From a virus: 21,952 nt of DNA. The number at the start of each line of letters is the position of its first letter. The stretch's first letter is position 1. Shown piece by piece: positions 4,795-21,952 of this stretch. The position numbers and the translations under genes were made by a program. The DNA lies in IMG/VR virus record IMGVR_UViG_3300006332_000228, positions 1 to 21,952 of that record. One strand, written 5' to 3'. Below the pieces are notes generated by a model. It worked only from the letters and a program-made list of their open reading frames with translations. It searched no databases and was not told the origin of the DNA.

Positions 4795-5058
4795 ATGCCT
4801 ACTGATGTCGCTAGAGATATAGTAAACGCACTGTTTGCTGGACAGAAAGATCTGTCCGATTACGTTGTACAGGGTATGAATGCGAAAGCAGTTGATGCCA
4901 TAGATGCAAGGAAGCAAGAAGTTGGAAAGGTTTTATTTAAACCACAGGAAGACGGTCCTGAAAACACCGAGCAACCTGCGGATGCTGAACCACCTGAAGC
5001 TTCAACCGAAACCGAAACCGAGGAACCTAAAAATGAAACTGATCAGGGAGGAGATTGA
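4795..5058 (+). CDS. 67: Small prohead core protein, gp67-like
   Basis: An 87-residue protein between the portal and the prohead protease, the position of T4 gene 67 (prohead internal core protein). The N-terminal half (DVARDIVNALFAGQKDLSDYV, then a short Lys-containing helix) looks like the helical start shared by T4-like core proteins; the C-terminal half is almost entirely Glu/Pro/Thr/Asp, with a short Thr-Glu repeat encoded by ACCGAA triplicated near 5005-5020. The last 26 bases overlap the start of gp21 in another frame. The role in scaffold formation, with later degradation by gp21, is inferred from position and acidity, since sequence similarity to T4 gp67 is low. Confidence 0.7.
   Translation: MPTDVARDIVNALFAGQKDLSDYVVQGMNAKAVDAIDARKQEVGKVLFKPQEDGPENTEQPADAEPPEASTETETEEPKNETDQGGD
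5020..5025 (+). promoter_or_regulatory. Ribosome binding site that fixes the gp21 start
   Basis: GAGGAA sits seven bases before the ATG at 5033, within the end of the preceding gene. It supports MKLIREE as the true N-terminus of gp21 rather than the in-frame ATG 129 bases upstream, whose extension (Pro/Lys-rich, antisense in character to the acidic gp67 tail) has no counterpart in the family. Confidence 0.7.
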
Positions 5059-5680
5059 AACCGCTAAAGTAACAATCACCGAAGGTAAGAATGGGAAAAA
5101 ATCTCATTTTATCGAGGGTGTATTTTTGCAGGGGGAGATCAAAAACCGCAATGGTCGGATGTATCCTATTTCGACATTGCAACGTGAAGCAAAAGCTTAC
5201 AACACAAAGTATATTGAGAAGGGACGTGCACTAGGAGAGTTGGGTCATCCTGATGGTCCTACTATCAACCTAGATAGAGTGTCACATCTCATCACTTCCC
5301 TTAAACAGGAAGGTAATAACTATGTTGGCAAGGCAAGACTATTGGATACACCAATGGGTAACATTGCCAAGAATCTTATTGATGAGGGTGTCAAGTTGGG
5401 TGTTTCATCCCGTGGACTTGGTACTATAAGAGAAAGAGATGGTGTTAAAGTCGTCATGGATGACTTTATGCTCGCAACAGCAGCAGATATTGTTGCTGAT
5501 CCTTCCGCACCAGATGCTTTCGTCAATGGAATCATGGAAGGAAAGGAATGGATCTACAATAATGGGTCAGTTCAAGAGCAAACAGTGGAGCAAATCAAAA
5601 AAAGAATTGATAATGCTGCACTAAATCAAATGGAACAGGTAAAACTTTCCGCATTTAACCAGTTTATGCAGAGCTTGTAA
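5033..5680 (+). CDS. 21: Prohead core protease gp21
   Basis: Serine-type prohead maturation protease (T4 gp21 family), packaged in the core and activated after shell assembly, which cuts scaffold and capsid proteins after Glu. From the ATG at 5033 the product is 215 residues, close to T4 gp21 (212). Family landmarks are FIEGVFLQGEIKNRNGRMYP (26-45), the ELGHP motif with catalytic His72, and GVSSRGLG (123-130) with the catalytic serine (Ser125 or Ser126), followed by DDFMLATAADIVADPSAPDAF. The frame stays open 43 codons further upstream, but that stretch overlaps the gp67-like gene and is not conserved. The 26-base overlap with the upstream gene suggests translational coupling. Confidence 0.95.
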   Translation: MKLIREEIETAKVTITEGKNGKKSHFIEGVFLQGEIKNRNGRMYPISTLQREAKAYNTKYIEKGRALGELGHPDGPTINLDRVSHLITSLKQEGNNYVGKARLLDTPMGNIAKNLIDEGVKLGVSSRGLGTIRERDGVKVVMDDFMLATAADIVADPSAPDAFVNGIMEGKEWIYNNGSVQEQTVEQIKKRIDNAALNQMEQVKLSAFNQFMQSL

Positions 5681-8205: not shown

Positions 8206-8210
8206 ACACA

Positions 8211-8238
8211 CAAGAGACCCTTCGGGGTCTCTTTTTTT
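8211..8238 (+). terminator. Rho-independent terminator after gp23
   Basis: AGAGACCC (8213-8220) pairs perfectly with GGGTCTCT (8225-8232) around a TTCG tetraloop, followed by an uninterrupted run of Ts to 8238. This closes the virion block. Confidence 0.95.
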
Positions 8239-8249
8239 ATGCTATGATC

Positions 8250-8256
8250 CTAAATA
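8250..8256 (+). promoter_or_regulatory. Putative late promoter box after the gp23 terminator
   Basis: CTAAATA lies 12 bases after the terminator and 29 bases before the 54-aa ORF, well placed to restart late transcription of the small genes and gp3. Confidence 0.45.
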
Positions 8257-8278
8257 CTTAAGTAGAATAGGTATAGCC

Positions 8279-8443
8279 ATGAACGGTAGGCTGACTAAAG
8301 TTGATATGACTTCTAAGCTCATGCAACTTAAGAGAGAGTTACACTATAAGTGTGAGATAGGAGAGAAAGGTAAGTGGGAATGCATTGGTGCCAATGAGTA
8401 CCTAAACAGAACACTAGACGTACTGGACGAATTTTATATGTAA
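8279..8443 (+). CDS. Small conserved-type phage protein, 54 aa, function unknown
   Basis: ATG at 8279 opens a 54-residue frame ending at TAA 8441-8443. The product (starting MNGRLTKVDMTSKLMQLKRE, ending LDVLDEFYM) is charged and probably all helical, with one KWEC segment and no membrane span. Codon use is like that of its neighbours, and it fills the gap between the capsid terminator and the next gene without overlap. I recognise the pattern as a small gene often found behind gp23 in cyanophages, but no function is known to me. Confidence 0.6.
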   Translation: MNGRLTKVDMTSKLMQLKRELHYKCEIGEKGKWECIGANEYLNRTLDVLDEFYM

Positions 8444-8452
8444 TGCTACAAT
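8424..8452 (+). promoter_or_regulatory. Possible sigma-70-like promoter before the membrane-protein gene
   Basis: TGGACG (4 of 6 to TTGACA) at 8424-8429, a 17-base spacer, then TACAAT at 8447-8452. Initiation about seven bases after the -10 would fall on the ATG at 8459. The -35 match is weak, so this is tentative. Confidence 0.3.
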
Positions 8453-8458
8453 GGACGT

Positions 8459-8773
8459 ATGACAGAAGAAATGATCAGAAAGATCTCCTACACCAAGGAG
8501 GAGGTTGATATATTAATTGCTGAGGCAGTCGCAGAAGCACGACGCATCGATGAAGAGTCAATGCGTAAGCACAATCGTGACGCTACTATCATCAGTATGA
8601 TTCTGGGGTTCACCTGTCTAGCATTATTTGTTGATGGTCTCCTAAGAATACTAGGTATCATCCCACCATTTATGAATATTGATGTTGATATAATCGATCA
8701 GATTGTAGAGAGGGTAGAGCAAGATGTTATACCACAGGTTGAGAAGTATAAGGCATATATACCACGGATATAA
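8459..8773 (+). CDS. Small single-span membrane protein, function unknown
   Basis: A 104-residue protein with a charged helical N-terminus (1-43, including KEEVDILIAEAVAEARR), one hydrophobic span at about 44-69 (TIISMILGFTCLALFVD then LLRILGIIPP) and an acidic C-terminal tail. There is no cleavable signal peptide, so it should sit in the inner membrane. The start has no clear Shine-Dalgarno site; an ATG four codons in (8471) is an alternative. It lies among small genes between the capsid and gp3. One span of this type is compatible with a holin, an inner-membrane spanin or an exclusion protein, but nothing specific identifies it. Confidence 0.65.
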   Translation: MTEEMIRKISYTKEEVDILIAEAVAEARRIDEESMRKHNRDATIISMILGFTCLALFVDGLLRILGIIPPFMNIDVDIIDQIVERVEQDVIPQVEKYKAYIPRI

Positions 8774-8776
8774 ATA
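8769..8776 (+). promoter_or_regulatory. Putative late promoter, exact T4 octamer TATAAATA
   Basis: The only intergenic copy of the full T4 late promoter octamer that I found. It overlaps the stop of the membrane-protein gene and the first base of the 49-aa ORF's ATG, so a transcript started here would lack that ORF's start codon and would serve gp3 and the genes after it. Confidence 0.5.
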
Positions 8777-8925
8777 TGTTAAGTAAGGACTATAGACTTA
8801 GGCTGTCTGTTATTGCCTGTAAGACTCGTCTTAACAGGGAGGTCAGTCTTGATGATAGGATCTGGGCTCAGAAATTAGTTGAGCATAACAATCATGCCAG
8901 AGGTATCTGGGAAAGGATGACATGA
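8776..8925 (+). CDS. Small phage protein upstream of gp3, 49 aa, function unknown
   Basis: ATG at 8776 opens a 49-residue frame (MLSKDYRLRLSVIACKTRLN..., ending GIWERMT) whose TGA overlaps the gp3 start as ATGA. The product is basic and likely a two- or three-helix domain. Its tight coupling to gp3 and neighbour-like codon use support a real gene. I recognise it as a type of small ORF seen next to gp3 in cyanophages, without known role. Confidence 0.6.
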   Translation: MLSKDYRLRLSVIACKTRLNREVSLDDRIWAQKLVEHNNHARGIWERMT

Positions 8926-9476
8926 CTACGTGGAAAAAACAAATAGAGAATAGAAACTTCCTATCCCCGATAGGGTTCAAGTTTAGTCTCGCAAAATACC
9001 CAAAGGTATCTTATTTCTGTCAGACTGCTAACATACCTAGTATGAATCTAAGTATTCAGCAGCAGTCCACACCATTTAGATCACTACCATTGGAAGGATT
9101 CATAGAGTATGATCCTTTAACACTATCATTTTTGGTAGATGAGAATTTAGAAAATTATTTAATACTACACAACTGGATACGTGCACTAGGTACTCCTGAC
9201 TCTACCATTGAGAGGAGAGAGTTTGTCCTTAAGATGCAGCAGTTGTTTGGTAACACAGACCTCTACGCTGATGCCACATTGATGGTACTCAACAGTAATT
9301 TCCAACACAATTTTGACGTTGTATTTGAAGATTTAATACCTATAGGGTTGAATGCATTGGAGTTTAATGCTACAGTAGATGGCACGGAGTATGCTATGGC
9401 AACAGTATCATTTAGATACCTTGCTTATCAGATCCGTAAGAAAGAAGAATCGAAACGTAATACGCAAATCGACTAA
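8922..9476 (+). CDS. 3: Tail completion protein, gp3-like
   Basis: Predicted tail-tube terminator/sheath stabiliser. The 184-residue product starts WKKQIENRNFLSPIGFKFSL and contains FIEYDPLTLSFLVDENLENYL, HNWIRALGTP and a C-terminal YAMATVSFRYLAYQI, the pattern of cyanophage proteins annotated as gp3 and, more broadly, of tube-fold proteins (gp19/gp3 type beta strands with an ENY..hnWi helix). T4 gp3 is 176 aa. The start is set by AAAGGA at 8912-8917 and by the ATGA overlap with the upstream ORF. A baseplate- or tube-related paralogue is the main alternative. Confidence 0.7.
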   Translation: MTTWKKQIENRNFLSPIGFKFSLAKYPKVSYFCQTANIPSMNLSIQQQSTPFRSLPLEGFIEYDPLTLSFLVDENLENYLILHNWIRALGTPDSTIERREFVLKMQQLFGNTDLYADATLMVLNSNFQHNFDVVFEDLIPIGLNALEFNATVDGTEYAMATVSFRYLAYQIRKKEESKRNTQID

Positions 9477-12033: not shown

Positions 12034-12513
12034 ATGGCATCTAAAATGGCTCGTAAGCAGAAGCAACACTACGTTGATAACAAAAAGTTTTTACAAGAGA
12101 TAACGAATTATCGACTTGCGGTTGAGGCTGCGAAGAGAAATGATGAAGAGAAACCTCGTATCACTCATTATCTTGCGGAATGTTTTTTAAAAATAGCAAC
12201 ACACTTATCATATAGACCAAACTTTATTAACTACATGTATAAAGAGGACATGATCTCTGATGGAGTGGAGAATTGTGTCCAGTATATCGATAATTTTAAT
12301 CCAGAGAAAAGTAAGAATCCATTTGCATACTTCACACAGATAATATATTACGCTTTCTTAAGAAGGATAGCAAAAGAGAAGCGTCAGATGGATATACGTG
12401 ATAAGTTAATAGAAAAGAGTGGGTATGAGCAAGTATTCCATTCAGATAATAATGATGATCACTCTGAAATGAATAGCATTAAGGGTAGAATTGAGACAAG
12501 TATGAGGAATTAA
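12034..12513 (+). CDS. 55: Late transcription sigma factor gp55
   Basis: Minimal sigma-like factor that directs host RNA polymerase to phage late promoters, in T4 together with gp33 and the gp45 clamp. The 159-residue product (T4 gp55 is 185) has a sigma region 2-like core at about 43-130: ITHYLAECFLKIATHLSYR, MYKEDMISDGVENCVQYIDNFNPEKS, NPFAYFTQIIYYAFLRRI and KEKRQMDIRDK. The C-terminus (ending RIETSMRN) is polar and lacks the hydrophobic-acidic clamp-binding tail known for T4 gp55. It has its own sigma-70-type promoter and overlaps the next gene by TAATG. Confidence 0.95.
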   Translation: MASKMARKQKQHYVDNKKFLQEITNYRLAVEAAKRNDEEKPRITHYLAECFLKIATHLSYRPNFINYMYKEDMISDGVENCVQYIDNFNPEKSKNPFAYFTQIIYYAFLRRIAKEKRQMDIRDKLIEKSGYEQVFHSDNNDDHSEMNSIKGRIETSMRN

Positions 12514-13085
12514 TGGATCTATTTGCGATACCAATACATCATGGTAAATTAGATCTTCCTTTAGACAATCTTCGCAACAGACTAGACAATCTATTTCAAC
12601 AGTGTGATAGGGGTGTTTGGGCTGGTGAGACAGGTCTTTCTACTGGTCAGTTAGGTTTAGATTTACATCAATATCCAGAGGTTTCGTCTCTGGTTGATGC
12701 TCTTATGCCTAGAGTGCATGAATATTGGGAAGTATTACACTATGTCCCTGCTACCTTAGAGGTAGAATCATGTTGGGCTAATCAACATAGTGTAGGTGAC
12801 AGGACACAAGAGCATGGACACTGTGATGGACACAGGCAGACGCACGTAGCGTCTGTTTTTTATGTCGAGAAGGTGGAGGGTGCTGATCTTGAGTTTATTA
12901 ATCCATTGGATTATATTCATAAGATGACACCACTTGCAGGAGAGCAGGGTGATATGCTAATGTCTGAGAGTATAGCCTCGAAAACAGGTGATTTCTTCCT
13001 ATTTCCTGGTTGGATGCGTCATCGCACTAGTCCTACTAAGAATAAAAGAATTGCGATCAGTATAAACTTTAAAGGTGTTTGGTAA
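12513..13085 (+). CDS. 2OG-Fe(II) oxygenase family protein
   Basis: Predicted iron- and 2-oxoglutarate-dependent dioxygenase of the short phage type (Pfam 2OG-FeII_Oxy_5-like). The 190-residue product shows SCWANQH (86-92), HGHCDGH (101-107) with a candidate H-x-D at His103/Asp105, a VASVFYVE strand, GDFFLFPGWMRHRTSP with the distal His170, and RIAISINF with Arg179 for 2-oxoglutarate. Substrate is unknown; hydroxylation of protein, DNA base or small molecule is possible. It is coupled by TAATG to gene 55 upstream and gene 47 downstream. A terminator-like hairpin lies inside the coding sequence at codons 109-117. Confidence 0.88.
   Translation: MDLFAIPIHHGKLDLPLDNLRNRLDNLFQQCDRGVWAGETGLSTGQLGLDLHQYPEVSSLVDALMPRVHEYWEVLHYVPATLEVESCWANQHSVGDRTQEHGHCDGHRQTHVASVFYVEKVEGADLEFINPLDYIHKMTPLAGEQGDMLMSESIASKTGDFFLFPGWMRHRTSPTKNKRIAISINFKGVW
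12837..12861 (+). terminator. Intrinsic-terminator-like hairpin inside the oxygenase gene
   Basis: CAGACGC (12837-12843) pairs perfectly with GCGTCTG (12849-12855) around ACGTA, directly followed by six Ts. By form this is a complete Rho-independent terminator, although it encodes conserved-looking residues of the oxygenase. Confidence 0.6.
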
Positions 13086-14119: not shown

Positions 14120-14388
14120 TGTTTGTGCTACTTGACAAGAAGACAGGTGGTGTATATGCTGTAAGGGATGACAATCATACTGAGCGAGTGGTCCAGATCT
14201 TTGTTGACAAAGATGATGCGACACGTTATTATGATATGCTGCTAGCTGATGATTATCCTAGGAAGCTAACTGTACAGGAAATCGAAGAAGATCAGGTCAA
14301 AGAGAATTGTACGATGCATGGGTATGCATTTTCTTTTATAGGACCAGATGAATTTGTAATTCCTCCCCCACAAGACGACACTAAATGA
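14119..14388 (+). CDS. DUF3110-like small protein between gp47 and gp46
   Basis: From ATG 14119 (TAATG overlap with gene 47) the product is 89 residues; the frame opens two codons earlier with TTG, which I do not use. The pattern FVLLDKKTGGVYAVRD, RVVQIFVDKDDATRYYDML, LADDYP, LTVQEIEED, then C and GYAFSFIGPDEF with a final IPPP, resembles the short DUF3110 domain known mainly from cyanobacteria. It looks like a small alpha-beta fold of the ferredoxin-like kind. Function is unknown. Its place inside the 47-46 pair, with ATGA coupling to 46, suggests coexpression with the nuclease. Confidence 0.75.
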   Translation: MFVLLDKKTGGVYAVRDDNHTERVVQIFVDKDDATRYYDMLLADDYPRKLTVQEIEEDQVKENCTMHGYAFSFIGPDEFVIPPPQDDTK

Positions 14389-16046
14389 TTGTATTTGATA
14401 AGATTCGTTGGAAGAATTTCCTATCTACTGGAAACTCTTTCACTGAGGTGAATATAACTGATGCTCAATCACACCTAGTCATAGGTGCCAACGGTGCAGG
14501 GAAGTCCACGATGCTGGATGCTCTGTGCTTTGTATTGTTCAACAAACCATTCAGAAAGATCACTAAGTTACAGTTGGTCAACAGTATAAATGAGCGAGAC
14601 ACCACAGTAGAGATAGAATTTACTATAGGTAGTATAAATTATAAAGTAATTAGAGGAGCGAAACCAAATGTATTTGAAATTTATAGAAACGGTAAACTAC
14701 TTGACCAAGACGCTGCTTCCAAAGATACACAGAAGTACCTTGAGCAATCCATCCTCAAGTTTAATTACAAATCCTTTACACAGGTCGTCATCCTTGGTTC
14801 ATCCACATTTGTCCCATTCATGCAACTCAACGCTCCTGTCAGGAGAGAAGTTATCGAAGATCTATTGGACATCCAGATCTTCTCACGAATGAATAATCTA
14901 TTGAAAGATAGATTAAAAGATGCAAGGGATATCATAAAGAACTGTGAGCACGAGTTGAAACTTGCTTCTCAACAGGTTGAAATGCAAGAAAGATCCATTA
15001 CTACCTTAGAGAAACTCAGCAGTGAGCATAAGAGTAAGATGGAAGCACGTATGGAAGAGATTCATACAGAGGTTGAGACTAGTCAAGATGAGATCACTGA
15101 GTTGACTAAGAAGATTGATCGAATGCAAGACATACAATTAAAGTATGATGAGATGAAGGAGATGAGGGTCAAGATAACTCACAACCTAGAGAAGGCTGAC
15201 AAGGATTTGAAGTTTTATTGGGAGAATGATAACTGTCCTACATGCAATCAAGTGTTAATGGACAAGACTGCGTTGATTGATGGAGCACAAGGGAGACAGA
15301 AGAGATTTTTAGAAGGACTTAATATAATCACAGACTCACTTAACAGAGGGAATACACAGATTAAGGAGTTACAAGGTCATGCACAGGATATAAACAAGGC
15401 AAATGCAAGGATCAGTGCCCTTCAGAATGAGTTAAGGAAATTGATGAAGGAAGTAAACCAAGAGGCACCTGATATTGATCTTGAGAGAGAACAATTAGAT
15501 AAGTATCAGTCCTTACTTTCGGCCACTGAAAGTGACTGTGCTGAAGAAAATAAGAATTATGACAATTTAACGCTGGTTGGTACCTTATTAAAAGATTCTG
15601 GTATTAAAAGTAAGATCATTAGTAAATTCATACCTGTAATCAACCAGATGATTAATAAATATCTACAGTCGATGGACTTCTTCGTTAACTTTACCCTTGA
15701 CGATGAGTTCAATGAAGTAATTAAGAGTAGATTCAGAGATGAATTCTCCTATGCCTCATTCTCAGAGGGTGAGAAGCAGAAGATTGACCTAGCACTCCTC
15801 TTTACATGGAGAGAGATCGCAAGACTCAAGAATTCTGCTGCTACTAACCTTCTTATACTGGATGAGGTCTTTGACTCTTCACTGGATGACTCTAGTACAG
15901 ATGAATTACTGAAGATTCTAAGGGGATTAGGTGAGAATGTTAATTTATTTGTCATTTCTCACAAAGGTGAGCTACTTCTTGATAAATTTGAGAAAACCCT
16001 GAAGTTTGAGAAGGCAAATGATTTTTCCAAACTGGCAGCATCATAG
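14385..16046 (+). CDS. 46: Recombination nuclease ATPase subunit gp46 (SbcC/Rad50-like)
   Basis: SMC-like ATPase that partners gp47 in DNA end resection. The 553-residue product (T4 gp46 is 560) has Walker A GANGAGKST (34-42), long coiled-coil arms at about 170-280 and 300-390 flanking a zinc hook CPTC (284-287), the ABC signature SFSEGEKQKIDLA (458-470) and Walker B NLLILDEVFD (488-497). All catalytic motifs are intact. It begins in an ATGA overlap with the DUF3110-like gene and ends with tandem stops TAG-TAA, followed by the structured 140-base intergenic region. Confidence 0.97.
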   Translation: MIVFDKIRWKNFLSTGNSFTEVNITDAQSHLVIGANGAGKSTMLDALCFVLFNKPFRKITKLQLVNSINERDTTVEIEFTIGSINYKVIRGAKPNVFEIYRNGKLLDQDAASKDTQKYLEQSILKFNYKSFTQVVILGSSTFVPFMQLNAPVRREVIEDLLDIQIFSRMNNLLKDRLKDARDIIKNCEHELKLASQQVEMQERSITTLEKLSSEHKSKMEARMEEIHTEVETSQDEITELTKKIDRMQDIQLKYDEMKEMRVKITHNLEKADKDLKFYWENDNCPTCNQVLMDKTALIDGAQGRQKRFLEGLNIITDSLNRGNTQIKELQGHAQDINKANARISALQNELRKLMKEVNQEAPDIDLEREQLDKYQSLLSATESDCAEENKNYDNLTLVGTLLKDSGIKSKIISKFIPVINQMINKYLQSMDFFVNFTLDDEFNEVIKSRFRDEFSYASFSEGEKQKIDLALLFTWREIARLKNSAATNLLILDEVFDSSLDDSSTDELLKILRGLGENVNLFVISHKGELLLDKFEKTLKFEKANDFSKLAAS

Positions 16047-16186: not shown

Positions 16187-18376
16187 ATGCTTCAGCAACA
16201 AGAAATCAAAGGTACACTTGCCAAACTACTCGCAACAGAGAATCTTATAGTAGAACATAAGGTAGTTGAGACTGCATCCTTTGATGTTGATAAGAGGGTC
16301 TTGGTCTTACCTATATGGGACACAACAGAGAGAGTATACAACCTATTAGTAGGACATGAAGTAGGACACGCACTCTTCACACCAAATGAGGAGTGGAAAA
16401 CCTTAGAGTGCCCTAAGTCTTATGTAAATGTCACTGAAGATGCAAGGATTGAGAAACTAATGAAGCGTAAGTTTCCTGGTCTTGCTAAGGATTTCTTCCA
16501 AGGGTATAAGCAACTCAATGCAGGTGACTTTTTCCAGATTCAAAACATAGATGTTGAGTATATGAATCTGATTGACAGAATTAACCTTCATTATAAGATC
16601 GGATCCTATGAAATGATCCCATTTAATGACGCTGAGGCACCCCTCAGAGACGCTGTAGGGGCAGCAGAAACATTTGAGCAAGCATTGGAGTGTGCAAGAG
16701 CAATTTATGAGTATGAAAAAGGTCAAAAAGAGAAGGAGAAACTGGAGTCTTTATCTGGGACGGAAGATAAATCAGATCTTAATATCGATGGGACTACAGG
16801 AGACTCCGTGGGAGAAGCACCAGATGGTGAAGACGGAGAGACAGATGGTAAATCTGATTCGCAACCTGAAGAGACTGAATCAGACTCAGATCAATCCGAG
16901 GGTGAAGCGATTAAGCAAGGTGGCACAGAAGCAGGTGACCTTGAAGCTCAGACAGATAGGTCCCTCGCAGATAATCTCAAGAAACTTGCATCAGACTATC
17001 AGGGAGACCAAACGCATTACGTTGAGATTGATGACGTGGATATTTCTCACCATGTAGTGAGTCCACACAAGGTGCATGAGTTAACTTCTGAGTTTTGGGG
17101 TCAAGAGCAGTATACAAATAAGGAGTATGAATACTATCAGGAGTTAAACTGGGAGAGATGTGATTCTGAGTATAGAATATTCAAACGTAAGGCAAGTCAG
17201 GAAGTAAACTATCTCTCTAAAGAATTTGAGATGAAGAAGTCTGCTGCTGCATATGCTAGAGAGCAAGTTGCTAAGACTGGTAGTCTTGATATGGCAAAAC
17301 TCCACACATATAAGTGGAATGATGACATCTTTAAGAAGATAACAGTCAGACCTGACGGTAAGAATCATGGATTGATCTTCCTATTAGACTGGTCTGGATC
17401 AATGGCAGATGTTATCCATGACACATACAAGCAATTGCTTTCATTATGTTTCTTCTGTCGTAAATCAGGCATCCCATTTGAGGTATATGCATTCGTCCAA
17501 GATGGACATTATATTTCTCTTAATGCTAGAGATAGAGAAGAGTGGGTTGGTCGTGTTAATACCTTCCATGTGCCTTGGGAATTCTCTTTACTAAACTTCC
17601 TTAGCAGTAAACTTAACAATGCAACATTTGATTTGTATGCTAAGGAATTATTCCGAGTAACATACATGTATGAGTCTCGTTATGGTCATGGTTATAGAAT
17701 GAGTTACTATCACTGTGAGGAGAGAAGACATGAGATCCCTAATGCTATCCCAAATCATTTGAATCTTGGTGGCACACCACTTAATGAAGCACTTGCATGT
17801 TTGCAAAGTCTTATACCTGACTTCCAAAGGAGGAATGGAGTTGAGAAGACACACTGTGTTATCTTAACTGATGGTGATGCACAACACTCTGGTATGTGGA
17901 CTGAGAGTGAGTGGAGAGGTGAAGACAAAATCCATAGGACTGGTCTTCGTTACAACACTTCCTTCAGAGATAGAAGAAATGGTAGGACATATAAGTTTGA
18001 TAACATGAGACCACAGCACTCAATTACCAAACAGTTACTACAGTATCTTAAGGGTCGCTATCCTTCATGTAATTTCTTAGGATTCCGTATCGCATCTAAT
18101 CGTGAGGTTAATAAGCATGTTGAATATGCAGAAGAGTTGAATGAGAGACAGATTAAAGATGCTAAGAAGGCATGGACTAAGAATAAGTCTTGCTCTGCAC
18201 CTATAGAAGGGTATCAAGAGTTATTCTTTTTATCATCTAAGCATCTAAATATTGACACTGAGTTTGAGCCTAAGTCAGATTCAAAGGCAGATATTAAGAG
18301 AGCATTCACTAAGTCTCTTAAGGGTAAGTCAAACAACAAGAAGATCTTATCCTCTTTCATTGATCAAATAGCATGA
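16187..18376 (+). CDS. VWA-domain protein with metalloprotease motif, CobT-like
   Basis: A 729-residue protein in three parts. N-terminal: HEVGH (57-61), the HExxH zinc-protease signature, followed by NVTEDARIE (81-89), which fits the third-ligand helix of gluzincin-type proteases. Middle: a very acidic low-complexity linker at about 184-262. C-terminal: a VWA domain with complete MIDAS residues, DWSGS (401-405), Thr530 in LGGTP and TDGD (561-564). The VWA plus acidic linker layout is that of CobT/ChlD chelatase subunits, which work with AAA+ partners; a CobS-like ATPase lies one gene downstream. No CobN-like subunit is present in the window, so literal cobalt chelation is doubtful. The start is supported by AAAGGA nearby. 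It ends in an ATGA overlap with the next gene. Confidence 0.88.
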   Translation: MLQQQEIKGTLAKLLATENLIVEHKVVETASFDVDKRVLVLPIWDTTERVYNLLVGHEVGHALFTPNEEWKTLECPKSYVNVTEDARIEKLMKRKFPGLAKDFFQGYKQLNAGDFFQIQNIDVEYMNLIDRINLHYKIGSYEMIPFNDAEAPLRDAVGAAETFEQALECARAIYEYEKGQKEKEKLESLSGTEDKSDLNIDGTTGDSVGEAPDGEDGETDGKSDSQPEETESDSDQSEGEAIKQGGTEAGDLEAQTDRSLADNLKKLASDYQGDQTHYVEIDDVDISHHVVSPHKVHELTSEFWGQEQYTNKEYEYYQELNWERCDSEYRIFKRKASQEVNYLSKEFEMKKSAAAYAREQVAKTGSLDMAKLHTYKWNDDIFKKITVRPDGKNHGLIFLLDWSGSMADVIHDTYKQLLSLCFFCRKSGIPFEVYAFVQDGHYISLNARDREEWVGRVNTFHVPWEFSLLNFLSSKLNNATFDLYAKELFRVTYMYESRYGHGYRMSYYHCEERRHEIPNAIPNHLNLGGTPLNEALACLQSLIPDFQRRNGVEKTHCVILTDGDAQHSGMWTESEWRGEDKIHRTGLRYNTSFRDRRNGRTYKFDNMRPQHSITKQLLQYLKGRYPSCNFLGFRIASNREVNKHVEYAEELNERQIKDAKKAWTKNKSCSAPIEGYQELFFLSSKHLNIDTEFEPKSDSKADIKRAFTKSLKGKSNNKKILSSFIDQIA

Positions 18377-18912
18377 ATATCTTTGCAGTAGATGAGGATC
18401 CTGCACTAGCAGCATTCTCTCTACCAGACAAATACATTGTTAAGATGCCTGTTGAGACCACGCAAATGATTGCGTTGGTCTTTTCTAGGTGGCATTGGAA
18501 TGTTGGACCTGTTTTAAAGGCAGATAATAAACCATATAATACTACTAAGGGTGCATTCAGAAATCATCCATGCACTAAGTGGGCAGCAGAAAGTCCTGAC
18601 AATTTACAGTGGTTATTTCAGCATGGTATATCATTGTGTAATGAATACACTTCTAGGTATGGTAAGAAACATGCATGTGAAAGAAGTATCAGACTAGCAG
18701 CACTAACACAGATGGAAAATGGATGTCCAGAGCATCACACACCATTTGTTAGAGCAATGCCTGATTCTTTAAAGTACCGTGAGGATATTGATACTACCAC
18801 TGCGTATCAAATGTACGTATCAAGTAAGGAATGGGTGCTAAATGATTACAAGCGTGTGCCAGATAACAAACCGTCCTGGTTACCTACACAACCTTATGAT
18901 ATAGGGTTATAA
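18373..18912 (+). CDS. Phage protein of unknown function between the VWA and AAA+ genes
   Basis: A 179-residue protein beginning MNIFAVDEDPALAAFSLPDK and then YIVKMPVETTQM, with later blocks FRNHPCTKWAAES, NLQWLFQHGISLCNEYTSRYGKKHACE and FVRAMPDSLKY. This resembles a family of phage proteins with an N-terminal D-x-DP..AA and DK..VKM..E..Q motif, for which I know no established function. Conserved His, Cys, Trp and Asp residues suggest a compact globular, perhaps enzymatic, domain. It is translationally coupled to the VWA gene (ATGA) and is followed after 28 bases by the AAA+ gene. A terminator-like hairpin lies in its codons 28-38. Confidence 0.75.
   Translation: MNIFAVDEDPALAAFSLPDKYIVKMPVETTQMIALVFSRWHWNVGPVLKADNKPYNTTKGAFRNHPCTKWAAESPDNLQWLFQHGISLCNEYTSRYGKKHACERSIRLAALTQMENGCPEHHTPFVRAMPDSLKYREDIDTTTAYQMYVSSKEWVLNDYKRVPDNKPSWLPTQPYDIGL
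18454..18485 (+). terminator. Terminator-like hairpin early in the 179-aa gene
   Basis: AGACCACGCAA (18455-18465) pairs with TTGCG-T-TGGTCT (18470-18481) around ATGA, about 11 bp with one bulged T, followed by TTTCT. It is a strong stem for this genome and sits only 80 bases into the gene. Confidence 0.4.
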
Positions 18913-18913
18913 T
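18885..18913 (+). promoter_or_regulatory. Possible sigma-70 promoter upstream of the CobS-like gene
   Basis: TACACA (18885-18890, 4 of 6) and a perfect TATAAT (18908-18913) separated by 17 bases. A start near 18920 would give a leader of about 20 bases carrying AAAAAGGA before the ATG at 18941. Confidence 0.5.
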
Positions 18914-18940
18914 AAGTGTATACAAAACAAAAAGGACACA

Positions 18941-20035
18941 ATGCCAGTTAAACTAACAGTTACCACTGAAGACATCAGAGATTACCTAGTAGGTGAGTTT
19001 GGTGTAAACGTAAAGACACCTGAATTGCAAGCAGCATGTAAGAGATTTGACCTTGCTTATCAGACAGTCTCAAAATACTTAGGAGAATTTAAAGTAAAGA
19101 GAGGAGTATGGGATCTAACAGTGGCAGAAGCAAAGGAACAACTAGAGAAGACTGTATCTCTTGTGTCAACTGAAGTAAAAGATTTGGTACCAACTAAGGA
19201 TGACCACTTCGTACCATTCGGTAACTTCACTGACCTCAAGAAAGTTATAACATCTAAGGTTTTCTATCCAATATTCATCACTGGTCTATCTGGTAACGGT
19301 AAAACCTTTGGTGTAGAGCAAGCATGTGCTCAAGCAAAGAGGGATCTTATCCGAGTAAACATTACTGTAGAAACTGATGAAGACGATCTTATTGGTGGGT
19401 TTAGGCTTGTGGATGGGAATACAGTTTGGCATAATGGACCTGTCATCGAAGCACTTGAGCGTGGATCAGTACTCTTACTTGACGAAATCGACCTTGCTTC
19501 CAATAAGATTCTCTGTTTACAGTCAATCCTTGAGGGTAATGGTGTCTTCCTAAAGAAGGTAGGACGTTATGTAAGACCTAAAGAGGGATTTACAGTGGTT
19601 GCAACTGCTAATACTAAGGGTAAGGGTAGTGAAGACGGTAGATTCATAGGCACAAACGTCCTAAATGAGGCATTTTTAGAGCGTTTTCCACTAACATTTG
19701 AGCAAGAATATCCTAATCCCAAGACAGAGATTAAGATGCTCAATAACTATTGTAAAGAATTGGACTGCTGTGATGATAAGTACATTGCTAACCTAACTAC
19801 ATGGGCCGAAATTATTCGTAAGACCTTTAAGGATGGTGGAGTGGATGAAGTTATCTCTACACGTCGTCTTGTGCACATAATCCGTGCGTATGCTATATTC
19901 TCTGATAGAGTGAAGGCAATCAAGGTATGCTTAAATCGTTTCGATGATGAAACAAAACAGTCATTCTTAGAATTATATGATAAGATTGATAACGAGGTTG
20001 ACATCGAGAACCTTGACAACATTCTAGCCAGCTGA
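18941..20035 (+). CDS. cobS: CobS-like (MoxR-type) AAA+ ATPase
   Basis: AAA+ ATPase of the CobS/MoxR group, 364 residues. After an N-terminal helical domain (1-90) come Walker A GLSGNGKT (115-122), the VETDEDDLIGGF region (143-154) with a helix-2 insert, Walker B LLLDEID (178-184), sensor 1 ATAN (221-224) and the arginine-finger region AFLERFP (244-250). Cyanophages commonly carry a gene annotated cobS; in bacteria CobS works with CobT (VWA) and CobN to insert cobalt in the corrin ring. Here the neighbouring VWA-metalloprotease protein is the natural partner, and no CobN-like subunit is seen, so a protein-remodelling role of MoxR/VWA type is at least as likely. The ribosome site AAGGA precedes the start. 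Confidence 0.9.
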   Translation: MPVKLTVTTEDIRDYLVGEFGVNVKTPELQAACKRFDLAYQTVSKYLGEFKVKRGVWDLTVAEAKEQLEKTVSLVSTEVKDLVPTKDDHFVPFGNFTDLKKVITSKVFYPIFITGLSGNGKTFGVEQACAQAKRDLIRVNITVETDEDDLIGGFRLVDGNTVWHNGPVIEALERGSVLLLDEIDLASNKILCLQSILEGNGVFLKKVGRYVRPKEGFTVVATANTKGKGSEDGRFIGTNVLNEAFLERFPLTFEQEYPNPKTEIKMLNNYCKELDCCDDKYIANLTTWAEIIRKTFKDGGVDEVISTRRLVHIIRAYAIFSDRVKAIKVCLNRFDDETKQSFLELYDKIDNEVDIENLDNILAS

Positions 20036-20047: not shown

Positions 20048-20362
20048 ATGAAATACAGAGAAGACGATACGATCAAGGTGGTGCAGGATTATATCTCCAG
20101 CACCTACCGATCCCACTACTCAAACGAAGAGAAGGGGGTCCAGACTCTAGACCTCCTTGAGGCAATAGGATCAGCAGAGCACTTCTGTCAATCCAATATC
20201 ATTAAGTATGCATCTCGCTACAAGAAAAAGAGTCAGCATAAGAGTGACGTGTTAAAAATCATTCACTATGCTATACTATTATATTATTTCTCAGGCACGT
20301 CGTATCCTGATGATAAAGAAGTCCCACCTCCAACACCAGCAGAATTTATAGACTATGACTGA
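20048..20362 (+). CDS. DUF3310-family small phage protein
   Basis: A 104-residue protein with the DUF3310 pattern: a sequence around VQTLDLLEAIGSAEHFCQSNIIKY followed by ASRYKKKSQHKSDVLKIIHY, that is Q-x-x-D, FC.(S/G)N.IKY..RYK.K and a final helix. This short helical domain occurs alone or fused to nucleotide-kinase-like proteins in many phages; its activity alone is not established. No good ribosome site precedes the ATG, consistent with leaderless translation from the promoter just upstream. A stable hairpin (20132-20140 with 20150-20158) lies inside the gene. The stop overlaps the gp45 start by eight bases. Confidence 0.85.
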   Translation: MKYREDDTIKVVQDYISSTYRSHYSNEEKGVQTLDLLEAIGSAEHFCQSNIIKYASRYKKKSQHKSDVLKIIHYAILLYYFSGTSYPDDKEVPPPTPAEFIDYD

Positions 20363-21170
20363 AGATTTAATAGCGTCAACAGAATTAAAAACAGATACTG
20401 CAAATGCAGTACGAAATTCCGAAGCAAGAGCAAAGGATCCAAGAACAAATATCCAACTAAGTAAATCAACTATTGATCTGTTGAGGAATTTTAGTACCAT
20501 TAATAAGTCTATTATTATTGAGGAAGGATCTTATGTACAAACCATGTCAGTCAATAAGAATATTATTGGTATGGGTAAGATCAAGGAATTTATTCCATGT
20601 AATATGGCGATCTATGATCTACCATTATTCTTAGGAGCATTGTCTCTATTCAAGAAACCTTGGTTGAATTTTCCTGATGATAAGAAAGTAATTATTTTTG
20701 ATGAGGAGACTAAAGGTAAGACTGTATTCTATTACAGTGACCCTGAGATTATTGTAACTCCACCTGAGTTTAATAAAGATCTTCCTGAGCAAGAGCTTAT
20801 GTTTAATCTTCCACAGTCAGATCTAACTCAGTTGATGCAAGCTGCAAAGGTTTATGGTGTTGAGGATCTATGTATTAATGGGTACAAGGGTGAGTATAGT
20901 ATCTGTGTAAGGGACAATAAGAATAAGACTTCTAATGTATTCTCTTTACCTCTTAAGAAGGTTAACTTCTTCCAAGGTCTTCAGACAGATGGTGAAGAAG
21001 AATATAAGTTGACTGCTGAGAGAACGACATTCTGTTTCTGCTTCAAGGTAGAGAATTTAAAATTACAAGATGCATCTTATCATGTAGTTATTAGTAATAG
21101 GAATATTGCTAACTTTAATTCAATGACTCACAGTGAGTTAAATTATTTCGTTGCTATGGAGCCTAAGTAA
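20355..21170 (+). CDS. 45: Sliding clamp gp45, with N-terminal extension
   Basis: Trimeric DNA polymerase processivity clamp, also required for late transcription in T4. Similarity to T4 gp45 begins at residue 34, QLSKSTIDLLRNFSTIN, and continues through MAIYDLPLFLGALSLF, the central linker and LQDASYHVVISN to the C-terminal LNYFVAMEP. The product is 271 residues versus 228 in T4; about 33 residues (MTEDLIAST... to DPRTNI) are added at the N-terminus. There is no in-frame ATG, GTG or TTG between residue 1 and the conserved start, so the extension appears genuine. Its stop overlaps the gp44 start as TAATG. Confidence 0.93.
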   Translation: MTEDLIASTELKTDTANAVRNSEARAKDPRTNIQLSKSTIDLLRNFSTINKSIIIEEGSYVQTMSVNKNIIGMGKIKEFIPCNMAIYDLPLFLGALSLFKKPWLNFPDDKKVIIFDEETKGKTVFYYSDPEIIVTPPEFNKDLPEQELMFNLPQSDLTQLMQAAKVYGVEDLCINGYKGEYSICVRDNKNKTSNVFSLPLKKVNFFQGLQTDGEEEYKLTAERTTFCFCFKVENLKLQDASYHVVISNRNIANFNSMTHSELNYFVAMEPK

Positions 21171-21952
21171 TGTTTCTATGGGTAGAGAAGTATCGACCAA
21201 GGACAATTGAAGAATGCATACTACCCGAAGATACTAAAAAGGTATTCAAAGGATTCTTGGAGCAAGGGGAGATACCAAACCTCTTGCTCTCTGGGTCTGC
21301 GGGTGTAGGTAAAACCACAATAGCGAAAGCATTGTGTGATGAGTTAGGAGCAGATAGTTATGTCATTAATGGGTCTGATGAGGGTCGATTCTTGGACACT
21401 GTACGCAATCAGGCAAAGACCTTTGCTAGTACTGTTTCTCTCACTTCTGATTCCAACCACAAGGTTATTATTGTGGATGAAGCAGACAACACAACTCCTG
21501 ACGTACAATTACTTTTACGAGCGTCGATTGAAGAGTTTCAAAAGAACTGCAGGTTCATCTTTACTTGTAATTATAAAAACAAAATCATAACACCACTGCA
21601 TAGTAGGTGCTCAGTAGTAGACTTTAACGTTAGAGGTAAGGATAAACTTAAACTTGCTGAAGCATTCTTCCATAGGGTCAAGGTTATACTTGAGATGGAG
21701 ATGGTTAAGTATGAAGAGAAGGTGGTAGCAGAGGTAGTAAGGAAGTACTTCCCAGATTTTCGTAGGACTATTAATGAATTGCAGAGATATTCTGCAACAG
21801 GTGTAATAGATGCTGGTATATTATCGTCAGGTAATGAATTTAGTATTGAGAAGGTAGTTGGTCATCTCCGTAACAAAGAGTTTACTAACATGAAGAAGTG
21901 GGTTGCTCAGAATATGGACAACGAACCACAGGTTATCATGAGAAAGATATAT
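21170..21952 (+). CDS. 44: Clamp loader large subunit gp44 (3' end outside window)
   Basis: ATPase subunit of the gp44/62 clamp loader that opens gp45 and places it on primed DNA. The frame starts at ATG 21170 (TAATG overlap with gp45) and is open to the right edge, giving 261 residues of a protein that is about 319 in T4. It starts FLWVEKYRPRTIEECILPE, the standard clamp-loader N-terminus, then Walker A GSAGVGKT (42-49), Walker B VIIVDEAD (99-106), sensor 1 region IFTCNYKNKI and the arginine-finger SRC motif (145-147). gp62 would be expected just beyond the edge. Confidence 0.96.
   Translation, partial: MFLWVEKYRPRTIEECILPEDTKKVFKGFLEQGEIPNLLLSGSAGVGKTTIAKALCDELGADSYVINGSDEGRFLDTVRNQAKTFASTVSLTSDSNHKVIIVDEADNTTPDVQLLLRASIEEFQKNCRFIFTCNYKNKIITPLHSRCSVVDFNVRGKDKLKLAEAFFHRVKVILEMEMVKYEEKVVAEVVRKYFPDFRRTINELQRYSATGVIDAGILSSGNEFSIEKVVGHLRNKEFTNMKKWVAQNMDNEPQVIMRKIY

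Follow-up and report, generated by a model that had tools for sequence, protein, structure and literature searches.

The cobS locus of a T4-like, cyanophage-type phage: a putative zincin-VWA protease and its CobS/MoxR-type ATPase partner

What does the cobS gene of a T4-like cyanophage do? Surveys of ocean metagenomes count it among the viral genes of B12 metabolism, it is a core gene of the T4-like cyanophages (PMC3037559), and it has been reported for more than 90% of them. The question is raised anew by a stretch of viral DNA of 21,952 nucleotides (IMG/VR virus record IMGVR_UViG_3300006332_000228, positions 1 to 21,952; hereafter, the window), in which a CobS/MoxR-type AAA+ ATPase is encoded one gene downstream of a 729-residue protein that appears to combine a zincin-type metallopeptidase domain with a VWA domain. 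We conclude that the two proteins probably constitute one ATP-driven protein-remodelling and proteolytic machine rather than a B12 gene. The gp23 capsid protein of the window is nearest to those of Synechococcus and Prochlorococcus myophages, with 85% identity to that of S-CREM1; the label "cyanophage-type" is therefore well founded, and the window appears to be of the T4-like cyanomyovirus type.

Neither the gene family nor the pair is new, and the two rival readings of the pair have been published (PMC8651126, PMC3037559, PMC7824862). In the proposal of Liu et al. (2021), viral CobST hijacks the CobN of the host and the annotation "peptidase" stands for a mis-annotated cobT (PMC8651126); the host-CobN idea was repeated in 2026 (PMC13390420). 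A 2023 paper stated that it was unknown whether phage cobS has a B12 function (PMC9983427). Iyer et al. (2021) proposed a role in virion assembly for the MoxR-vWA-metallopeptidase systems of jumbo phages (PMC7824862). As far as the literature searched shows, the new elements here are the contrast in the zinc site with cellular CobT, the bridge through mobile-element proteins, the joint loss of both genes from three cyanophages, the use of hosts and plasmids to test the B12 idea, and the observation that in several lineages the genes lie near those of replication or recombination.

The VWA protein and its AAA+ partner

The 729-residue protein (16187..18376, + strand, as are all features of the two genes given below) matches phrog_459 ("peptidase", T4-GC 146) over nearly its full length (E 1.8e-239, residues 4-729 on profile positions 3-736). 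It is 41-43% identical to its closest isolates and about 91% identical to proteins of two other uncultured contigs. Its minigluzincin-type, metallopeptidase-like N-terminal domain (residues 1-180; 16187..16726) contains the putative zinc-binding and catalytic motif HEVGH (residues 57-61; 16355..16369) and the motif NVTEDARIE (residues 81-89; 16427..16453). An acidic linker (residues 190-256; 16754..16954), composed of 33% D+E and 4% K+R, is predicted to be disordered, with a predicted local distance difference test score (pLDDT) below 50 for residues 191-250. The VWA domain (about residues 391-690; 17357..18256) has a full metal ion-dependent adhesion site (MIDAS), which in the alignment of relatives consists of motif 1, DWSGS (residues 401-405; 17387..17401), T530 (17774-17776) and D562 (17870-17872). 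The two motifs, the acidic linker and the VWA domain with its MIDAS, first described in a sequence-only reading of the window, were confirmed in the sequence.

The zinc-site signature is unlikely to be fortuitous. A bare HExxH appears in 6.8% of shuffled copies of the 729-residue protein, and HExxH together with E[DE]xR[IVL]E at the correct spacing appears in none of 20,000 shuffles. H57, E58, H61, N81, E84, D85 and R87 are invariant in all 111 aligned relatives, as are the MIDAS residues D401, S403, S405 and D562, with T530 present in 110 of the 111. As 80 of the loci behind this alignment were fetched with the patterns VGHEVGH or EDARIEK, which favours the motif, the cleaner count is that of the loci fetched by other peptide patterns, where the signature is kept in 33 of 33. 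Mean conservation is 0.59-0.67 for residues 1-120 compared with 0.15-0.34 for residues 151-330. The invariance of E58, the putative catalytic glutamate, would favour a protease, as this residue is dispensable for zinc binding alone. By analogy with gluzincins, E84, located 23 residues past H61, may serve as the third zinc ligand.

A structure prediction of residues 1-180 agrees with this assignment. The AlphaFold2 model built with 54 relatives (pLDDT 87.1; predicted template modelling score 0.83) consists of one helix, three strands, a helix with HEVGH (residues 48-64) and a helix with NVTEDARIE (residues 77-95). This is the gluzincin layout, with HExxH on one helix and the candidate third ligand on the next, and the suggestion of the sequence-only reading that HEVGH lies on a zincin helix holds in the model. 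The seven best matches of the domain among solved structures are all minigluzincins (selecase, jannalysin and abylysin; probability 0.84-1.0), followed by ArdC and then, weakly, by PprI/IrrE and Wss1. The phage domain shares its predicted fold and the HExxH-plus-Glu layout with the minigluzincins, but the match is weak (E 0.1-0.5) and minigluzincins are stand-alone small peptidases of about 105-110 residues. A comparison of the domain with predicted viral structures gave proteins of phages and haloarchaeal viruses, several of them named CobT or VWFA, with identities as low as 12-20%. In the model of the full-length protein (pLDDT 75), the linker is disordered, and the top solved match is NorD of the NorQD complex, found on the VWA part (E 3.4e-4). 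Searches of Pfam, NCBIfam and PADLOC with the VWA protein gave no usable match, and a search of the sequences of solved structures returned noise only. PF13203 (DUF2201_N), considered as its family, was rejected with no match in the window.

The ATPase (364 residues; 18941..20035; phrog_249, T4-GC 150) is intact, as the sequence-only reading had stated. Walker A, GLSGNGKT (residues 115-122; 19283..19306), is invariant in 16 relatives, and Walker B, LLLDEID (residues 178-184; 19472..19492), was located by motif and alignment, its LLLDE being likewise invariant. The protein matches phrog_249 (5.6e-132), AAA_5 (1.9e-16) and CbbQ_C. Its score against the TIGR01650 CobS model is 68.6 bits, which is below the cut-off of 558.55. 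Among solved structures, midasin and CobS are nearest to it in sequence, followed by NorQ and CbbQ.

The co-occurrence expected of working partners is observed. CobS lies downstream of the VWA gene, mostly within 1 kb, in 85 of the 85 loci that include the part of the VWA gene encoding the C-terminus and extend 1.5 kb or more beyond it. The protease gene is present in 463 annotated phage records, and 465 such records have a CobS match over 80% or more of the query; both lists contain the same numbers of records named Synechococcus (365), Cyanophage (61) and Prochlorococcus (24). The T4-like cyanophages S-B68, S-N03 and S-H34, reported to be without cobS (PMC10665884), lack both genes (3 of 3), and S-H9-1 has both. 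The protease and CobS-like genes are a co-inherited pair whose members occur together and are lost together. The window pair shares family, full length, gene order and the position between gp46 and gp45 with the phrog_459/phrog_249 ("porphyrin biosynthesis") pair of T4-like cyanophages, from which it differs only by divergence.

The gene between the two (18373..18912, + strand) encodes a 179-residue protein of the pyrimidine-dimer DNA glycosylase family (PF03013, 4.8e-11), and its ATG overlaps the stop codon of the VWA gene (ATGA). Only 29 of the 85 loci contain this gene, which is therefore no core or obligate part of the pair. An annotated pyrimidine dimer glycosylase/endonuclease V is also found near cobS-cobT in Roseobacter phage CRP-810 (L171 6037-6531). 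In Pseudoalteromonas phage XG4 (L030 5902-9439), the VWA and zincin domains each have a gene of their own, with the order reversed, and CobS, gp45 and gp44 come next; its CobS is divided into two overlapping open reading frames (8209-8529 and 8516-9439), possibly by a frameshift or a sequencing error. A comparable split was described for HHTV-2 by Liu et al. 2021 (PMC8651126).

These features can be assembled into a mechanism. Rings of MoxR-class AAA+ proteins work together with VWA partners. In the phage pair, a ring of the MoxR/NorQ type would be built from the CobS-like protein; the VWA domain of the partner would dock on this ring, with substrates presented through the MIDAS metal site, and the zincin domain on its flexible acidic tether would cut what the ring unfolds or passes on. 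The catalytic zinc site, the binding of the two proteins to each other and the hand-over from the ring to the protease are steps that we infer. The AAA+ class and the VWA partner are shared with NorQ/NorD, CbbQ/CbbO and RavA/ViaA, with NorD being the best solved VWA match; the VWA partners in these systems are not known to have an active zincin domain. The MoxR/vWA-metallopeptidase pair of group 2.2 jumbo phages (PMC7824862), likened here by its published description alone, has the same architecture. Virion assembly was proposed for that pair, whereas the neighbourhoods described below are those of replication and recombination.

Cellular CobT and the cobaltochelatase question

The phage VWA protein gave no match to the Pfam CobT families (PF06213 and PF11775) up to E = 1. 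A profile-profile comparison with cellular CobT covered 28 columns at 1.7% probability, and direct homology is rejected at this sensitivity. The cellular comparison was made via Pfam CobT, as the scan for contigs with cellular relatives gave mainly phage contigs inside metagenome-assembled genomes (MAGs). A bridge is provided by an alignment of ten mobile-element CobT-like proteins (those of Cyrano, RHph_N2_6, a Marinobacter plasmid, an Acinetobacter phage-plasmid and Roseobacter phage CRP-810, and five from proteobacterial genomes), all of which keep H-E-H and E-D-E. The profile of these ten matches the T4-like family with 99.5% probability (E 3.6e-23) and cellular CobT with 100% probability (E 2.5e-47). 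The phage protein thereby appears to be a distant homologue of CobT, linked to it only through mobile-element proteins.

Related HExxH proteins are also found in enterobacterial phage-plasmids and IncC-type conjugative plasmids. These CobT-like proteins contain HExxH, an ED.RIE-type motif and a VWA domain, with an AAA_5/CbbQ_C partner in several loci. Their sequences are strongly diverged, and some have recognizable Pfam CobT domains. Unlike the T4-like pair, plasmid versions of the HExxH-VWA gene are accompanied by a DUF3150 gene.

The zinc site separates the two ends of this series. Cyrano CobT has strong matches to both PF06213 and PF11775, yet it retains HEVAH and NALEDVFIER. Cellular CobT has no HExxH at the zinc-site position in any of the 30 loci checked; the loci displayed have HDPxxH- or HDAxxH-like remnants, many of them with EAVEQARVE. 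One cellular CobT (L154) has a single unrelated HEPAH far upstream. Cellular CobS/CobT and the phage pair thus share distant ancestry through the mobile-element proteins and have an ExARxE-type motif, an acidic linker and a VWA domain in common, but cellular CobT lacks HExxH and has CobN as its working partner. On the most economical view, an ancestral zincin site has decayed in cellular CobT, a direction of change that we infer. The decay would then have come with the conversion of cellular CobT into an adaptor serving only the CobN chelatase.

If the phage pair were part of a cobaltochelatase, it would need a CobN. The sequence-only reading had noted no CobN-like subunit, and CobN was indeed found in none of the eight complete genomes examined of phages that carry either this pair or a CobT-like one, the window phage itself being represented by a fragment only. 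CobN is present in two of 50,697 phage records, and neither organism is among those listed with the protease gene. One record, "Pseudomonas phage Y13" (OQ572414.1 16685-19969), contains a full-length cobN that is 60% identical to a bacterial one and is possibly a bacterial contamination or a mis-assembly. Both genes of the pair are present in HTVC008M, a phage of SAR11, which is a B12 auxotroph (PMC9296465). Cyrano-type HExxH CobT is found on plasmids in 219 of 5,426 Escherichia coli genomes; cobN was not found in these 219 genomes by a DNA-level search, which is a weak test. For B12 synthesis, E. coli needed to be supplied with cobNST and the whole pathway (PMC6249242).

A similar picture emerges from cellular genomes. 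In a sample of 348 Pseudomonadota genomes, for which a completeness of at least 90% was requested, 129 have a strong CobT, and 40 of these 129 (including G020, G028 and G087) have no CobN. Hence, cellular CobST is not always a chelatase, and it probably has a non-chelatase role in many bacteria. CobT was found in none of the 194 genomes of the phylum to which a MAG titled Synechococcus sp. (G002) belongs, which leaves the cyanophage gene without an obvious source in cyanobacteria. Some relatives of the machine that we favour thus occur in hosts and elements in which a role in cobalt chelation is improbable. As the system occurs where CobN or B12 synthesis is not known, the doubt over cobS as a B12 gene, first raised from the sequence alone, is justified and strengthened.

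Gene neighbourhoods and the likely target

In the window, the three-gene set is located between gp46, the SbcC-like recombination nuclease subunit (14385..16046), and the gp45 sliding clamp (20355..21170), both identified by profile matches, and is followed by a small DUF3310 gene. The gp44 clamp loader (21170..21952), identified by matches to P-SSM2 gp44, leaves the window unfinished; all three are on the + strand. Further upstream, between gp55 and gp47, there is a 2OG-Fe(II) oxygenase gene (12513-13085); at this position P-SSM2 has no gene and P-HM1 has a different one.

Similar surroundings are found in most lineages. In T4-like phages, gp47/46 precede the pair and gp45/44 follow it. DNA polymerase, UvsX and a primase-helicase immediately precede the pair in DLP6, and its neighbours in ICP2 are a primase, a helicase and a polymerase. 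A dnaE gene lies within a few genes of the pair in RHph_N2_6, Cyrano, nickie and the Acinetobacter phage-plasmid, with a primase and a ligase also upstream in nickie and RHph_N2_6. On plasmids and in a chromosomal element, Bet/RecT, exonuclease, SSB or primase genes accompany the CbbQ-type AAA+ gene. In that element (L180 836-10272, a proteobacterial genome), the cassette comprises RecT, YqaJ exonuclease, CbbQ-type AAA+, the HExxH-VWA protein and primase; it resembles the cassettes of the IncC-type and Marinobacter plasmids and is probably part of an integrative element. Taken over perhaps five independent lineages, this neighbourhood is suggestive rather than decisive. A location among structural genes was seen in none of the annotated phage genomes examined, gene position being weak evidence of function.

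Because most lineages place the genes beside those of replication or recombination, a replication or recombination protein of the phage or the host is the most likely substrate, with a virion protein or a different host protein less likely, although we advance it tentatively. A possible task would be the clearing or recycling of replisome or recombinase complexes, or of proteins stuck on DNA. The "host or virion target" of the sequence-only reading was a guess. Conjugative plasmids carry the HExxH-VWA protein and make no virions, which makes a virion target less likely across the wider family; a role confined to the virion is further at odds with the absence of the genes from structural modules. 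A paper on expression in a Prochlorococcus phage names neither gene in its main text. The S-CREM2 virion proteome is similarly uninformative, as it concerns a cluster C phage reported to be without cobS.

Alternatives and implications

Several observations weigh against a replication-linked protease machine. The Foldseek E-values of the N-terminal domain against solved zincins are weak (0.11-0.41) and none is significant singly, so the zincin call rests on the agreement of all top matches and on the motif layout. In Pseudomonas phage nickie, the CobT-like protein (L172 5905-8064) has SEISK in place of HExxH and the pair is retained; therefore, the machine works without a protease in at least one phage. 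This loss of the zinc site is apparently independent of the decay in cellular CobT. A CobS-like ATPase was not found in the surroundings of the HExxH-VWA gene, over loci of roughly 13-14 kb, for three of the five chromosomal loci (L181, L182 and L184) and for the IncC locus L164. The pair of Roseobacter phage CRP-810 lies near the pyrimidine-dimer glycosylase only, with no adjoining replication gene. The base rate is also high, as 22-40% of nickie and ICP2 genes are located within 2-5 genes of a replication gene. Finally, cyanobacterial hosts have CobN, as the Synechococcus elongatus control shows, so a cobaltochelatase role of the cyanophage pair is only disfavoured. The earlier preference for a remodelling or proteolytic machine over a cobaltochelatase is favoured by the tests.

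According to the published proposal (PMC8651126; PMC13390420), viral CobST would take over the CobN of the host, and the resulting cobaltochelatase would raise the B12 supply for nucleotide synthesis. The distant homology to CobT via the bridging alignments (99.5% and 100%) and the presence of CobN without CobT in cyanobacteria (the S. elongatus control and the 194 genomes) agree with this idea. However, the direct comparison with the cellular CobT profile fails (1.7%), HExxH is missing from cellular CobT and kept in every examined phage protein of the T4-like family, the pair is present in HTVC008M, whose SAR11 host is a B12 auxotroph, HExxH relatives of CobT reside on E. coli plasmids, and 40 of the 129 CobT-bearing Pseudomonadota genomes have no CobN. 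We find this proposal improbable. A MoxR/VWA remodeller in which the zincin domain binds metal or peptide without cutting, as a pseudo-protease docking module, has somewhat more to recommend it and is still unlikely. NorQ/NorD and CobS/CobT, its cellular relatives, are remodellers and not proteases, and the pair persists without HExxH in cellular CobT (30 of 30) and in nickie. What a docking module leaves unexplained is E58, which is dispensable for zinc binding and is nevertheless invariant in 111 of 111 relatives (33 of 33 in the unbiased set) and in all ten mobile-element CobT-like proteins.

T4-like heads mature by proteolysis, which would suit a virion-assembly chaperone with a processing protease, the pair folding and clipping structural proteins late in infection. 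This role was explicitly proposed for the same architecture in jumbo phages, where an archaeal-virus MoxR-vWA pair needed for tail assembly is also cited (PMC7824862). Against it, the window already contains a gp21 maturation protease (4904-5680, identified from its position between gp20 and gp22), the genes of the pair lie outside the structural modules in every annotated phage genome examined, the HExxH-VWA protein is present on conjugative plasmids, and the T4-like cyanophages S-B68, S-N03 and S-H34 do without both genes. We give this role little credence, and we regard with equal scepticism a protease that degrades some host protein in the course of host takeover or counter-defence. The latter would be in keeping with the anti-host roles proposed for zincin and ArdC-type metallopeptidases in jumbo phages (PMC7824862) and with the wide distribution of related genes on plasmids and phages. 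Counter-defence genes tend to be patchy, though, whereas the pair is near-universal and co-linear in T4-like cyanophages, and the VWA protein has no match in the defence library.

A protein-remodelling and proteolytic machine thus remains the reading that we consider probable. In a wider form, which we put forward as a possibility of a more doubtful kind, HExxH-VWA proteins and CobS-like AAA+ ATPases would be widespread, unrecognized proteolytic machines of mobile elements in DNA replication and recombination, CobT would descend from them by loss of the zinc site, and the commonest "B12 gene" of marine viruses would therefore be no B12 gene. This class of machines would span T4-like marine phages, dnaE-encoding phages and phage-plasmids, and the RecT/exonuclease cassettes of conjugative plasmids. 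If the protease machine is real, its function would be testable with one point mutation, E58Q, counts of viral "B12 metabolism" that rely on cobS and cobT would have to be dropped, the B12 enzyme subunit CobT would have a protease origin, and this would help to explain why about a third of the sampled CobT-bearing Pseudomonadota genomes have no CobN.

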